The notes below the pieces were generated by a model. It did not search any database. It saw nothing but the letters and a program-made list of their open reading frames with translations, and was not told the origin of the DNA. Shown here piece after piece: positions 1 to 4,300 of a DNA stretch of 40,257 bases (position 1 is its first letter; each line of letters begins with the position of its first letter). The position numbers were made by a program, and so were the translations under genes. Source of the stretch: an uncultured Spirochaetales bacterium (GTDB taxonomy: Bacteria; Spirochaetota; Spirochaetia; Sphaerochaetales; Sphaerochaetaceae). Where the stretch lies: assembly GCA_949293335.1 (NCBI GenBank), contig CASFDA010000004.1, forward strand, positions 1 through 40,257, read 5' to 3'.

Positions 1-456
1 AAAGTGGTCAAAAGCTGAAAAACTGATTTCAGCCTGCCTTGGAAGCCTAGCAGCACATGATTATTAACGTTCAAAGGAGTTGTGGAAGATTCTGAAAATT
101 GGATTTAGTATTTGACAGAAGTCACATCATATGAAACATTTAATTACAGAAACTACGACAAAAGTAATAGAGATGTCTGTGGCTGAAAAACAAAGTGCTG
201 GATATCAGGATTGATGCAGATATACTTGTTCCCATCAGGGTATAGTGGTAATGGATAGTAGACTTGAGTCAAGGACCATTTAAGGCAGGGAGTGGTGAGC
301 GGACAGCTTTGAAAAGGTTACAAGGGTGTTTGGTTCCCGCCCCGTGTTACAGAGGAGCGATGAGGCGTTATTTTTCAATATGACTTAAGCTTTCAGAACC
401 TATGTTTGTTCACCGCAGATTGGAATTAAATGCCAAACAGGCTAAGATAATTGACC
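1..456. other. Intergenic/degenerate region, no gene recognised
   Basis: No open frame of useful length with a recognisable product was found on either strand. One frame starts open at base 2 and stops near base 64, so it could be the last 20 codons of a gene entering from the left, but nothing in it is recognisable. Short start-to-stop frames, for example 131-214, have no ribosome binding site and look random. The stretch directly precedes the methyltransferase and may hold its promoter; no convincing -35/-10 pair was assigned. Confidence 0.5.
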
Positions 457-1212
457 ATGGAAAACTATCAGGATATCAACGCAAGAGTGATTGCATCGTG
501 GATAAAAGACGGCTGGAAGTGGGGCCAGCCAATTGACCATGGAACATACCTGAATGCAGAGAAAGGCTGCTGGGATGTACTTCTCACTCCAACAAAACCT
601 GTACCGCATAGCTGGTTTCCATCCCCAGAGGGGAAAAGCCTGTTGGGCCTTGCTTGCGGAGGCGGCCAGCAGATACCCATATTCACGGCCATAGGCTTCC
701 ATTGCACTGTCCTTGATTACTGCGACGCGCAGCTTGAGAGCGAAAGGCTTGTTTCCAGACGCGAGGGCTATGATGTGAACATAGTGAAGGCAGATATGAC
801 AGAGCCTCTTCCTTTCGACGAAGAATCGTTTGATGTCGTCTTCAATCCTGTCTCGCTCTGCTATGTTGAGTCGGTTGAACCTATCCTGAAAGAATGCTTC
901 AGAGTGTTGAAAAAGAACGGCATTCTCCTTATCGCCTTTGATAATGGGCTGAATTTCATTACAGATGAAGGAGATGAGGAGCGTATCGTGAGAGGGCTGC
1001 CATTCAATCCGCTGAAAGACCCTGCACTCTACAAAGAAGAAGACGGCATGCAGTTTTCCCACTCCTTTTCTGAACAGATCGGTGGACTGCTGAGAGCAGG
1101 ATTTACGATCACTGATGTGTACGACGACACTAACGGTTACGGTCGCCTGCATGAGCTGGATATCCCTTCTTTTTGGGCTGTCAGAGCTGTCAAAACATCA
1201 AATTTGCAGTGA
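457..1212 (+). CDS. Class I SAM-dependent methyltransferase
   Basis: A 251-residue methyltransferase of the UbiE/Methyltransf_11 type; substrate unknown. The SAM-binding glycine motif GLACGGGQQ lies near residues 64-72. It is followed by the acidic strand end VLDYCD near 85-90, a KADMTEPLPF motif II segment, the DVVFNPVSLCYV post-motif and RVLKKNGILLIAF motif III. The ATG at 457 is preferred over a TTG two codons upstream; neither has a strong Shine-Dalgarno. The last 57 bp of the coding sequence, together with 21 bp downstream, are repeated at 3816-3893. The gene may therefore mark the insertion point of the following module. It stands alone, so context does not reveal the substrate. The family call is secure, the function is not. 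Confidence 0.85.
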   Translation: MENYQDINARVIASWIKDGWKWGQPIDHGTYLNAEKGCWDVLLTPTKPVPHSWFPSPEGKSLLGLACGGGQQIPIFTAIGFHCTVLDYCDAQLESERLVSRREGYDVNIVKADMTEPLPFDEESFDVVFNPVSLCYVESVEPILKECFRVLKKNGILLIAFDNGLNFITDEGDEERIVRGLPFNPLKDPALYKEEDGMQFSHSFSEQIGGLLRAGFTITDVYDDTNGYGRLHELDIPSFWAVRAVKTSNLQ

Positions 1213-1233
1213 CAACTCTCATGCCTGAAGGCA
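1156..1233 (+). repeat. 78-bp direct repeat, copy 1 (methyltransferase 3' end)
   Basis: Matches 3816-3893 at 76 of 78 positions, with mismatches at 1222 and 1226 and a constant offset of 2660 bp. It covers the last 57 bp of the methyltransferase gene including its stop codon, plus 21 bp downstream. The first 66 bp are identical. Together with copy 2 it brackets the lipoprotein/HTH/HicAB module. Confidence 0.95.
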
Positions 1234-1477
1234 TTGAGGAAGGTGGCATCATCTGGTAAGGCATGCTTCTCCAATTTCTATATCCATATGAATTGATCTT
1301 GACTGATTCGAATCACTTAGTGCGAAAGATCATATGAGTCAATCATACGTCTGTAAACTGGATAAATGATTGGATTGTAAAAAGATGTTAAATTTGCAGT
1401 TTTGCATCAGCATTGTCTTTCTGTATGTTTTTTCAATACCTAGGATTCAAGATGGGGAAACTAAGGAAAAGTAAAAC
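1234..1477. other. Intergenic region, nothing assigned
   Basis: AT-rich spacer between the methyltransferase and the poly-G promoter. It contains a 12-bp perfect palindrome (TGATTCGAATCA, 1304-1315) and a TTGACT...AGTCAA inverted pair (1299-1304, 1337-1342). No gene or convincing regulatory signal could be assigned. Confidence 0.4.
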
Positions 1478-1513
1478 TTGACAAAAATAAACCGGGGGGG
1501 GGTAGCCTATTAT
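1478..1513 (+). promoter_or_regulatory. Promoter with G9 tract in the spacer
   Basis: A perfect -35 TTGACA (1478-1483) is followed by AT-rich sequence, then nine consecutive G (1494-1502), then TAGCCTATTAT. Candidate -10 elements are TAGCCT (1503-1508, spacing 19) and TATTAT (1508-1513, spacing 24). Both are longer than the usual 17 bp. Loss of G residues would bring the first toward the optimum. The downstream gene is a surface lipoprotein. The motif positions are seen; the switch function is inferred. Confidence 0.6.
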
Positions 1514-1540
1514 CAGCAGTAATAGGAGGAAACAGAGAAA

Positions 1541-1996
1541 ATGAAAAAACTACTGATTTTGTTTCTTGCTCTCGTTGCAGTCTTCGGATTTGTTGCATGT
1601 GACAATAACCCAAATGATGAAGGTTCGGATGTTCCAATGGACACATTGAAGACCATATTCAAGGAAGCTGTTGGTAATTCTGATTTTGATACAGGATATT
1701 TAGTAGATCAGCCATTTGATTCTACTACAGGATATCATGTCATATTTGATATGAACGCAACAAAAGATGGAGAATCAATAACTTCCTGGACGATCGATAT
1801 CAATTCTGCCACAAAGGAAGGTGCTGATACTATTTCTTTCGTAATCAGCTCTACTGATCTTGGCAAAAACATAGAAGTAACGATTGGTGAAGAAAAATAT
1901 AACGTTGCTGCAAACGACATCAAGGGTGACACGACCATACCGGGATTTGTCGGAGATGACGACGAAGAAGAACAGGTTCCTCTTCAGACAAACTGA
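1541..1996 (+). CDS. Small predicted lipoprotein
   Basis: A 151-residue protein with a lipoprotein signal peptide: MKK start, hydrophobic core, and FVAC with the lipidated cysteine at residue 20. The mature part is hydrophilic and Thr/Asp-rich and ends in an acidic DDDEEE stretch. No enzyme motif is recognised. A strong Shine-Dalgarno (AGGAGG, about 1523-1528) precedes the ATG, and a rho-independent terminator follows, so it is probably a monocistronic unit. The promoter carries a G9 tract that may vary expression. Likely anchored in the outer or inner membrane and possibly surface exposed; function unknown. Confidence 0.75.
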   Translation: MKKLLILFLALVAVFGFVACDNNPNDEGSDVPMDTLKTIFKEAVGNSDFDTGYLVDQPFDSTTGYHVIFDMNATKDGESITSWTIDINSATKEGADTISFVISSTDLGKNIEVTIGEEKYNVAANDIKGDTTIPGFVGDDDEEEQVPLQTN

Positions 1997-2020
1997 GTTG
2001 TGTAGGCTCGAGTAAACCGT

Positions 2021-2047
2021 GGGGGAGTGTCATGCTCCCCTTTCTTT
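2021..2047 (+). terminator. Rho-independent terminator of the lipoprotein gene
   Basis: GGGGAG (2022-2027) pairs with CTCCCC (2035-2040) around a 7-nt loop and is followed by TTTCTTT. It lies 25 bp after the lipoprotein stop codon. Confidence 0.8.
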
Positions 2048-2139
2048 GTAATTCATGATTTTCCCCTAGTGCGAACTTCAGGTGTTTAGTCTACATCTTT
2101 CTCGAGTTTACATCAGAGATCAAAAGGAGGAGGGTAGTC

Positions 2140-2346
2140 ATGGAAAAAGGTAATTGTAAAGTTTCAAATCATCCTCGCATTCCACATGAGATCAGAAAGC
2201 AATGCCTTGAGTCGTTCATGCAAGGTAACGGATACAAGAAGACTGCAACTCTTACCGGCATGGCTCAAAGTGCAGTCAGGGAATACAACCGAAGATTCAA
2301 GGCAGGGGATATCAGCTGGGTGGATAGGGGTCCGAAGAGTAAATGA
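2140..2346 (+). CDS. Small helix-turn-helix protein, possible transposase N-terminal remnant
   Basis: A 68-residue basic protein. Residues about 14-55 read as a helix-turn-helix (HEIRKQCLESF, then GYKKTATLTGM, then AQSAVREYNRRF). This resembles the N-terminal DNA-binding domain of IS3/IS630-type transposases and stops where the rest of such a protein would begin. The Shine-Dalgarno is excellent (AAAGGAGGAGG, about 2122-2132). It could be a truncated transposase first ORF or a genuine small regulator of the adjacent lipoprotein, whose start lies 22 bp after this stop. Not enough is visible to choose. Confidence 0.5.
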   Translation: MEKGNCKVSNHPRIPHEIRKQCLESFMQGNGYKKTATLTGMAQSAVREYNRRFKAGDISWVDRGPKSK

Positions 2347-2368
2347 TCTTGCAAATGGAGGTTGTGTC

Positions 2369-2923
2369 TTGCGAAAGGCATTGATTGTTTTGGCTTCTTT
2401 TGTAATTGTATTTTCCTTTCTGTCTTGTGCCGAAGAGGTATTGGTTGATAAGGATTTAAATGTAACAGGGGCAAAAGCTGATGTTCAGTTCAGGATAGGC
2501 GATCGTTATGGGATCGTATTCAATGATACGGATATAGTCATAGAGGACAATGTAGTTATCGATGGCGTTTGTTCCAACAACCATGTTGAATATGGAATTG
2601 ACGGATTTGCAGGACTCGATAACGCGAAAGGTTACTTCCTTCCTCTGGAGATTTTAGACAAGCATGTGGATGATACATACAAGATAGAATCCTACCTGAT
2701 GGGAAAGGAAGTTCTTGCAGACATACTTTATTCTGGAGGGAAGTACTATGCGGTAATAAGGCTGCAGGAAGGTGGAGGAGGTTTTGATTTTAACCATGGA
2801 AAGCTTGAAATCATAATCGAAAACAGATTCAAGCGCTTTATTGGCACGCTTGAGTTGTTGCAGAGAAGTGATACATCGTCTGCCCCTGGCCTGTTATTGA
2901 AGCCAGCTATCGCTTCTGTCTAG
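2369..2923 (+). CDS. Predicted lipoprotein, TTG start
   Basis: A 184-residue lipoprotein. The open frame extends upstream through the HTH gene, but a TTG at 2369 has a well-placed GGAGG (2357-2361) and begins a classic signal peptide, RKALIVLASFVIVFSF, followed by LSC with the cysteine at residue 20. That start is therefore chosen. The mature region is moderately acidic, contains a Gly-rich GGGGFDF segment, and matches no family I recognise. It is cotranscribed with, or closely coupled to, the HTH gene and followed by a hairpin terminator. Location is predicted as envelope; function unknown. Confidence 0.65.
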   Translation: MRKALIVLASFVIVFSFLSCAEEVLVDKDLNVTGAKADVQFRIGDRYGIVFNDTDIVIEDNVVIDGVCSNNHVEYGIDGFAGLDNAKGYFLPLEILDKHVDDTYKIESYLMGKEVLADILYSGGKYYAVIRLQEGGGGFDFNHGKLEIIIENRFKRFIGTLELLQRSDTSSAPGLLLKPAIASV

Positions 2924-2931
2924 CAATTCCG

Positions 2932-2960
2932 TGGCTCTGCATGTGCGGAGCCATTTGCAT
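2932..2960 (+). terminator. Hairpin terminator after the second lipoprotein
   Basis: TGGCTCTGC (2932-2940) pairs with GCGGAGCCA (2945-2953), including one T-G wobble, around an ATGT loop. A weak T-rich tail follows. It lies 8 bp after the stop codon. Confidence 0.65.
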
Positions 2961-3108
2961 CTTGAATTCTATTTATGGATTGTGAAAAAATTCAAAATTT
3001 TTAGCTAATTTGTTTTGTTCTAACAAAATAATATTTTAGTCCTTTTGTGTCTTGTTCTAAGAAGATCTTATGATTATTAAGATATAATTCAGGAAACAAT
3101 ACTCCAGT

Positions 3109-3138
3109 TTGACATCATATACGACATCATAATATATT
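3109..3138 (+). promoter_or_regulatory. hicAB promoter with direct-repeat operator candidate
   Basis: -35 TTGACA (3109-3114) and -10 TATATT (3133-3138), spacing 18. The nonamer GACATCATA occurs twice within the spacer, at 3111-3119 and 3123-3131, 12 bp apart centre to centre. HicB antitoxins carry DNA-binding domains that autorepress their operons, so these repeats are a candidate operator. Confidence 0.55.
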
Positions 3139-3154
3139 CTGATATGGAGGCACG

Positions 3155-3391
3155 ATGTCTAAATGGGAAAAGCTGATGGCAAAGCTTAAAGCCCTTTCCC
3201 CTGATCTGAGGTTTGAAGAACTGGAGAAGATACTACTGAGCCATGGGTACGAGGAGAGGCAGCCCAAAAGCGGAAGCAGCCATTATGTGTTCAGCAAAGG
3301 AAGCAAGAGAATCGTCATTCCACGTCATAAGCCGATACTGAAGGTATATATAGAGCTTGTCAGGGATGCGGTTGAAGAGGAGGAGCTATGA
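3155..3391 (+). CDS. hicA: HicA-type toxin (mRNA interferase)
   Basis: A 78-residue protein of the HicA/YcfA family. These are small dsRBD-fold ribonucleases that cleave mRNA and tmRNA. It has the family core: a helix ending in LLSHGYEERQ, then KSGSSHYVF with the catalytic histidine at residue 43, then RIVIPRHKPI. Length matches the family (60-85 residues). Shine-Dalgarno GGAGG at 3146-3150. The stop overlaps the start of hicB by 4 bp (ATGA), the usual toxin-first order of hicAB. Its own TTGACA promoter lies upstream. Confidence 0.92.
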   Translation: MSKWEKLMAKLKALSPDLRFEELEKILLSHGYEERQPKSGSSHYVFSKGSKRIVIPRHKPILKVYIELVRDAVEEEEL

Positions 3392-3786
3392 TCAAGGACC
3401 TTGAATATTACATGTCCCTTCCCTATAGGATTGAGATAATCAAGGACACAGATGAGGAAGGTTATGCAGTCTTCATACCTGAGTTGAAGGGGTGCATCAC
3501 GACTGGTACGTCCATTCCTGATGCGCTTGAGAGCCTAGAGGACGCAAAAAAGACATGGTTTTCCTCTGCAATAGAGGATGGCGTTCCGATTCCTAAGCCG
3601 GATAGTCTGAAGGACTACAGCGGCGAGTTCAAGCTCCGCATGCCGAAATCCCTGCATCGTCGCCTGATGGAGCGTTCACGGGAGGAAGGTGTCAGCATGA
3701 ACCAATACTGCGTCATGCTCCTCAGCCAGGGAACGGCCTATGATGATGTTAAGAGAAGCAGTCATCGTAATTACCACCGCACATGA
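3388..3786 (+). CDS. hicB: HicB-type antitoxin with ribbon-helix-helix domain
   Basis: A 132-residue HicB antitoxin. Residues 12-65 form the degenerate RNase H-like HicB fold (DEEGYAVFIPELKGC, then TSIPDALESLEDAKKTW) that binds and inhibits HicA. Residues about 79-115 form an Arc-type ribbon-helix-helix (FKLRMPKSLHRRL, then GVSMNQYCVMLLS), the DNA-binding module for autorepression. Translation is coupled to hicA by a 4-bp overlap. Copy 2 of the 78-bp repeat begins 30 bp after its stop, placing hicAB at the right edge of the bracketed module. Confidence 0.92.
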   Translation: MIKDLEYYMSLPYRIEIIKDTDEEGYAVFIPELKGCITTGTSIPDALESLEDAKKTWFSSAIEDGVPIPKPDSLKDYSGEFKLRMPKSLHRRLMERSREEGVSMNQYCVMLLSQGTAYDDVKRSSHRNYHRT

Positions 3787-3815
3787 AGTGAATTTTTCAA
3801 AGGCTATTTCAGGAT

Positions 3816-3893
3816 CTGGATATCCCTTCTTTTTGGGCTGTCAGAGCTGTCAAAACATCAAATTTGCAGTGACAACTCTCACGCCAGAAGGCA
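3816..3893 (+). repeat. 78-bp direct repeat, copy 2
   Basis: Second copy of the methyltransferase 3' end (76/78 identical to 1156-1233), here with no gene body in front of it. It lies between the hicB stop and the ridA stop. It therefore looks like a scar of an insertion or duplication boundary and not a functional sequence. Confidence 0.95.
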
Positions 3894-3925
3894 AGTAGTG
3901 TCCATTCTTAGGCCCCTAATTTAGA

Positions 3926-4300
3926 CTACTTCATCACAGCAATTGCTTCTATTTCGCAGAGCACTCCTTTTGGAAGGGTCTTTACCGCAACACAACTGCG
4001 TGCTGGTTTGCTGGTGAAGTACTTTGAGTAAACTTCATTGAACGCGGCAAAATCTGCCATATCTGCAAGAAAACATGTTGTTTTGATCACGTCATCATAT
4101 GTTGCGCCTGCAGCCTTGAGCACTTCTCCGACATTCTTTGCTGCCATATTAGCCTGATACTCGATCGTATCTTCCTCGACGAGGCCATTTTCCGGGTTGA
4201 CCGGAAGCTGTCCAGATGTGAAGATAAACTGGCCAGAAACATAACCCTGAGAATAAGGTCCGATCGCCTCTGGTGCATTCTTTGTCTCGATTTTCTTCAT
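3926..4300 (-). CDS. ridA: RidA family enamine/imine deaminase
   Basis: A 124-residue RidA/YjgF/UK114 protein, the normal full length. RidA hydrolyses reactive 2-aminoacrylate-type enamines released by PLP enzymes, acting as a cytosolic trimer. Visible signatures are APEAIGPYSQ at the N terminus, TSGQLPV, and the C-terminal block ARSCVAVKTLPKGVLCEIEAIA with the carboxylate-binding arginine at residue 101. A Shine-Dalgarno (AAAGGAG) lies inside the 3' end of ispF, and the start overlaps the ispF stop by 4 bp, so it is the last gene of carD-ispD-ispF-ridA. Confidence 0.95.
   Translation of the reverse strand: MKKIETKNAPEAIGPYSQGYVSGQFIFTSGQLPVNPENGLVEEDTIEYQANMAAKNVGEVLKAAGATYDDVIKTTCFLADMADFAAFNEVYSKYFTSKPARSCVAVKTLPKGVLCEIEAIAVMK

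Follow-up and report, generated by a model that had tools for sequence, protein, structure and literature searches.

A candidate class of slippery poly-G promoters upstream of lipoprotein genes in a genus of uncultured spirochaetes

A poly-G spacer in a lipoprotein promoter

In the window, that is, the whole stretch of 40,257 nucleotides analysed here from an uncultured bacterium of the Sphaerochaetaceae, a run of nine G separates the -35 and -10 elements of a lipoprotein gene promoter. This promoter is best explained as a member of a sigma-70-type class with the consensus TTGACA-N6-WAC(C/G)-Gn-TAGNCT, which recurs across the genus ahead of lipoprotein genes, and the G9 tract as the slippery spacer of this dedicated class. 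Strand slippage during replication would add or remove G residues and, because the -10 element abuts the tract, each step would shift the distance between the -35 and -10 elements by one bp. The altered spacing would reversibly raise or lower transcription of the respective lipoprotein gene without affecting the other promoters, so that, with many such promoters per genome, a single clone could display many combinations of lipoproteins. We consider slippery-spacer phase variation of lipoprotein promoters the likely explanation for the observations presented below. The tract very probably slips; the mechanism itself is known, and its form here is genus-wide and modular. The site is one of hundreds of its kind in the genus, and random increases and decreases in the expression of many envelope proteins are thus probable in these bacteria; the encoded lipoproteins may be exposed at the cell surface, and populations may be mixed.

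All elements of the promoter lie on the forward strand of the window and can be read directly. The -35 element TTGACA (1478-1483) is followed by 10 nt, AAAATAAACC (1484-1493), the last four of which, AACC (1490-1493), represent the conserved WAC(C/G) element at this site, directly 5' of the tract; the G9 tract, the proposed slippage site, occupies positions 1494-1502. The -10 element, TAGCCT (1503-1508), abuts the tract and leaves a spacer of 19 bp. An earlier note on this DNA had described nine G between a perfect TTGACA and the -10 region, which is what positions 1478-1508 contain, and had given the spacer as either 19 or 24 bp. The former value stands. The latter, with TATTAT (1508-1513) as the alternative -10 element, is rejected because a TANNNT hexamer, used here to place the -10 element, immediately follows the G run at 94 of 102 related sites. 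When the window was searched for TTGACA-N10-G9-TAGNNT with at most three mismatches, this was the single match, compared to 0.01 expected from shuffled sequences.

The promoter is followed by a Shine-Dalgarno sequence, AGGAGG (1524-1529), and by an ORF of 151 aa (1541-1996, starting with ATG at 1541) that carries the lipoprotein signal MKKLLILFLALVAVFGFVAC and starts 38 nt downstream of the tract; Pfam offers no accepted family for its product. Downstream, on the same strand, a terminator-like hairpin (2021-2041) precedes a gene for a small helix-turn-helix (HTH) protein of 68 aa (2140-2346), which we regard as the cassette partner, and a third cassette gene, a second lipoprotein-type ORF with a TTG start (2369-2923; MRKALIVLASFVIVFSFLSC..., frame read directly). 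The same order of lipoprotein (61% identical), HTH protein (83%) and second lipoprotein is found in another genome (G001), where the orthologue of the 151-aa lipoprotein gene is located behind TTGACA-N9-G10-TACTAT.

Outside the main explanation, a possible 8-bp RNA hairpin (1506-1526, forward strand), which contains the TATTAT hexamer and overlaps the start of the Shine-Dalgarno sequence, was considered as a control element. This is a weak candidate: its predicted energy of -7.2 kcal/mol (z -2.49) was equalled by 6 of 200 shuffled sequences, and no Rfam family reached the gathering score within positions 1-4300 of the window.

A genus-wide promoter class

The earlier note had proposed this promoter as a candidate switch, a proposal that we retain with the further correction that the promoter is no single oddity but a member of a genus-wide class. 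The pattern TTGACA followed, after 8 to 12 nt, by G7 is present in 34 of 48 genomes of the same genus, and its reversed control in none. Searches with fixed spacing, one mismatch allowed, returned 23 rows at 17 bp, 65 at 18 bp, 135 at 19 bp and 21 at 20 bp, with reversed-control matches in two genomes at 19 bp, in one at 18 bp and in none at 17 or 20 bp. From part of the matched places the sequence was retrieved and, after deduplication, gave the 102 distinct sites mentioned above. A lipoprotein-type ORF, as recognized by a simple motif, lies 3' of 93 of these sites; the remaining nine include sites located at the end of a contig, sites whose ORF the motif failed to recognize, and one or two that precede genes for proteins other than lipoproteins.

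Within the class, the third position of the -10 element is G in 148 of 207 cases. The spacer ranges from 15 to 23 bp, with a mode at 19 (49 of the 102 sites), followed by 18 (25 sites) and 17 (10 sites). Just 5' of the tract, TAC (105 sites) or AAC (60 sites) is found in 165 of the 186 pure-tract sites with spacers of 18-20 bp. The non-G part of the spacer does not appear to compensate for tract length so as to keep the spacer constant (Spearman coefficient -0.14, p 0.18, n 102). As for the products, 6 of 10 lipoproteins compared to Pfam had no match at an E-value of 0.01, and the others matched diverse families (GLUG, Big_3, beta-helix-like and solute-binding), indicating that there is no common product family. 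A genome holds up to about ten or more such promoters.

Several contigs end beside these promoters (L149, L159, L175 and L176, at contig ends of G064 and G027). Copies within one genome, in G064 and G027, share the promoter and the signal peptide and differ in the rest. This suggests a possible spread of the promoters by duplication or recombination.

Variation of tract length

Among the 102 sites, tract lengths are G7 in 2, G8 in 18, G9 in 59, G10 in 18, G11 in 3 and G12 in 2. To compare closely related copies, 129 sites, including those from other families, were paired and their flanks aligned without gaps, so that the flanks of these pairs are free of indels beside the tract. In 12 pairs, the identity of the 90 flanking nt was 90% or higher; 10 of these have tracts of unequal length, as expected from slippage. 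Grouped by hand, the 12 pairs form seven clusters, each of which holds more than one length; three clusters are between genomes (G018/G069 and, twice, G062/G025), and four consist of copies inside one draft genome. For example, the G062/G025 copies have G11 versus G9 and G10 versus G8, and those in G064 have G8 versus G11. The tract length thus evolves far faster than the flanks. Of the 8168 pairs whose flanks are less than 60% identical, 5366 have unequal tracts, which implies that length is near saturation already among near-identical copies. The earlier note had argued that slippage would alter the spacing, and this is the best reading of the variation described here; it had also named a fixed tract length as evidence to the contrary, and among paralogues and sister species, the varying pairs being of these two kinds rather than strains of the window's species, the length is variable. 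Most of the genomes are drafts, in which miscalled homopolymers could contribute to the variation.

Not all tracts are pure. Interrupted tracts account for 18 of the 135 rows at 19 bp, 4 rows at 18 bp, 3 at 20 bp and 2 at 17 bp, that is, 18 of 27 have a 19-bp spacer. Such tracts, with their overall length unchanged, presumably do not slip, and a pure switch has no need of them. Among sites with the WAC motif, interrupted tracts make up 1 of 56 at spacer 18 and 19 of 150 at spacers of 19 or 20 bp, a difference with a p-value of 0.017 (Fisher test) that is not significant (p 0.23) once every row is included. Together with the preponderance of interrupted tracts at 19 bp, this hints that 19 bp is a working length. 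A model with G7, and thus a spacer of 17 bp, as the ON length may hold but finds no support here, 10 of the 102 sites having this spacing. The modal spacer is longer than both the optimum of 17 nt in tp0126 of Treponema pallidum (see below) and the spacing of exact TTGACA/TATAAT pairs in five genomes of the same genus (16 bp in 6 of 12 pairs, counted by eye), which counts against a pure switch.

The linked helix-turn-helix protein

The 68-aa protein encoded behind the lipoprotein is predicted to form three helices (mean pLDDT 81). Among 20 aligned members of this family, HTH_23 is matched in 18 and HTH_28 in 17 at E-values up to 0.1, and a single protein touches MerR_1 (E-value 0.083). Naming the protein by its fold was attempted and dropped given that the matches to solved structures, namely the HTH domains of paired-domain, mariner and IstA proteins, are weak (best E-value 0.32).

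Homologues are present in 30 of the 48 genomes of the genus and co-occur with the promoter: 29 genomes have both, five have poly-G promoters alone, one has the HTH gene alone, and 13 have neither (Fisher p 5e-7, uncorrected for kinship). Among the 83 HTH genes listed in 13 genomes, 57 are preceded on the same strand by a poly-G promoter no more than 4.5 kb away, at a median distance of 1259 nt, compared to a chance expectation of about 1%; none has a promoter on the opposite strand alone, and among the 26 that lack any, several are at contig ends. In the converse direction, an HTH gene lies behind the lipoprotein gene at 27 of 58 testable sites (8 of the 58 outside the genus).

A speculative reading of this linkage, which we regard as doubtful, is a cassette that combines the standard slippery promoter, TTGACA-N6-WAC-Gn-TAGNCT, with any lipoprotein and with a domesticated transposase-like HTH protein that would bind the poly-G spacer and read its length. 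If true, this would amount to a combinatorial, regulator-tuned system of random lipoprotein display in the uncultured spirochaetes of the genus, with a simpler form of it in several families of the class.

Alternative explanations

Slippage and regulation need not exclude each other. In such a combination, the promoter would be switched by slippage and its spacer read by a regulator from the cassette, with expression set jointly by tract length and regulator. This extension of the best explanation, to which we would give a minority share of our confidence, draws on all the evidence for slippage and, in addition, on the HTH gene linked to the promoter in 57 of 83 cases and on the conserved WAC element; a precedent is the CRP homologue Tp0262, reported with the tpr promoters in PMC7864442. 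Against it weigh the poor fold matches of the HTH protein (best E-value 0.32) and the fact that its binding site is postulated.

Alternatively, WACC-G9-TAG within a 19-bp spacer could be a fixed recognition element, an operator for a regulator, perhaps the HTH protein of the cassette, with changes in length being tolerated noise. MerR-type activators act at long-spacer promoters, in which a spacer of 19-20 bp holds a dyad bound by the MerR regulator. A 19-bp spacer is common here as well, but the left half of the TAC...GTA dyad is present as TAC at only 105 of the 186 sites. An operator is favoured by the retention of WAC, an element not required for slippage as such, in 165 of 186 sites, and likewise by the modal spacer of 19 bp (49 of 102 sites), the interrupted tracts that keep their overall length (with the WAC-bearing ones at 1 of 56 for spacer 18 against 19 of 150 for 19-20; p 0.017, or 0.23 with all rows) and, with the same reservation on kinship, the co-occurrence of HTH genes and poly-G promoters in 29 genomes. 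However, almost all tracts consist of G alone and vary from G7 to G12 while the flanks stay constant, and some genomes carry the promoter without the HTH gene, which renders a fixed operator improbable.

Even less probable, in our view, is the possibility that miscalls and mutation pressure generate the variation without any function. Most of the sequences do come from draft or metagenome assemblies, and several contigs end near these repeats, but neutral homopolymer drift would not set TTGACA 7-12 nt before the tract, TANNNT right after it and lipoprotein genes downstream, nor does an artefact accord with a reversed control that remained at zero in 48 genomes.

G runs elsewhere in the genome

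An i.i.d. estimate predicts 7.7 runs of at least nine G or C in the 1.92-Mb assembly that includes the window, and four are observed. By composition, then, the G9 run is unremarkable; its position is far from chance. The distance from the end of each run to the start codon of a lipoprotein gene downstream is 33-38 nt, although one of these genes could start at an in-frame codon nearer to the tract. The notion that the G run lies in an ordinary lipoprotein promoter by accident can be dismissed in view of this placement in four of four cases and of the recurrence in 34 of 48 genomes, although the composition of the genome allows for such a run somewhere.

Two of the four tracts, on contigs C4 and C31, have TTGACA before and TAGCCT after them; the other two are directly followed by TATTAT and have no TTGACA before, which counts against the proposed explanation. 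The latter, G9/G10 lipoprotein promoters at the ends of contigs C31 and C29 (L041 and L042), have similar upstream sequences; each lies about 170 nt from the point where its contig breaks off upstream. Another promoter with TTGACA, also on contig C31, has the interrupted tract GGGTGGGGG and belongs to one of two tandem cassettes on the minus strand of locus L040, each with a poly-G promoter, a lipoprotein gene and an HTH gene.

Of the seven runs of G8 or longer in this genome, six mark the 5' end of a gene whose product is exported, and two G7 runs lie beside tRNA-like sequence on contig C33. Among the three G8 runs, one (positions 23567-23574 of contig C10; L203, 268-275) falls into the codons for the signal peptide of a lipoprotein resembling a solute-binding protein and is a candidate translational (frameshift) switch. 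Another (38895-38902 of contig C21; L204, 196-203) immediately precedes the start codon, ATG, of a gene for an exported, outer-membrane-like product and may act as a Shine-Dalgarno sequence and spacing switch. The third has no clear gene nearby.

Relationship to known poly-G promoters

To our knowledge, poly-G promoter switching in spirochaetes is known mainly from T. pallidum. In tp0126, which encodes an OmpW homologue, the length of a poly-G tract between the -35 and -10 elements sets promoter strength, with an optimal spacer of 17 nt (Giacani et al., 2015, as cited in PMC7864442). The likeness is close, given that in both cases a spirochaete envelope protein promoter has a -35/-10 spacer set by poly-G length; tp0126, however, is one gene for an outer-membrane protein, whereas here many unrelated lipoprotein genes share the motif, the commonest spacer is 19 bp, and an HTH gene is linked.

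The earlier note had invoked the poly-G tracts upstream of the tpr genes as established modulators, in line with PMC7864442, where length effects are reported: eight or fewer G are permissive in tprE/G/J, G8 is stronger than G10 in tprL, and many other variable poly-G tracts are present in T. pallidum. The variable-length poly-G in the promoter is common to these genes and the present class; the Tpr proteins are probably a family different from the window lipoprotein. In Neisseria meningitidis, poly-G in the -35/-10 spacer of porA underlies transcriptional phase variation, its length determining how strong the promoter is (PMC3639595 and PMC7864442). There it concerns one gene in an unrelated phylum, unlike the promoter cassette repeated here across a genus. 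The two hallmarks of the porA and tp0126 type, a G homopolymer between the -35 and -10 elements and a length that varies among near-identical sequences, are both found in the present class.

What is new is the scale, in that one genome can have the conserved motif ahead of many unrelated lipoprotein genes, together with the linked small HTH gene. Listings of papers on spirochete homopolymeric promoters, on metagenome repeats with spirochaetes and on T. denticola poly-G lipoprotein promoters contain no description of this promoter class, and within the literature searched we found no paper that joins Sphaerochaeta and phase variation. If the slippery-spacer reading is confirmed, random envelope variation would be a wider habit of spirochaetes, beyond the agent of syphilis, and the genus would offer hundreds of natural spacer-length variants, along with a candidate cassette regulator, for studies on spacing and transcription.

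Spread beyond the genus

Across the class, TTGACA-N10-G7 matched 87 of 394 genomes, compared to nine for the reversed control (as read from the table). Of 18 sites outside the genus, picked mainly from families f1, f11 and f20, 14 precede a lipoprotein-type ORF, including all seven in the same family; for one of these seven (L190), the product may be secreted rather than a lipoprotein. In family f24, the pattern is frequent and no reversed-control match is seen in the table; this family possibly carries the same promoter class. At 14 loci in other families (L093-L099 and L103-L109), four matches are accompanied by a short lipoprotein-type ORF (53-95 aa) and nine by none, and L096 was not matched by the script; we treat these matches as chance. 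A pattern search also matched one contig each from a Dorea, a member of the Clostridia, a betaproteobacterium and an unnamed bacterium (four of nine stretches).

Neighbourhood of the window cassette

The cassette in the window is adjoined by a HicA/HicB-type toxin-antitoxin pair (3155-3786). An 84-nt direct repeat, 95% identical between its two copies (1150-1233 and 3810-3893) and corresponding to the 3' end of a methyltransferase gene, brackets the lipoprotein cassette together with the HicAB pair, and the 2.6-kb stretch between the repeats looks as if it had been inserted or duplicated.
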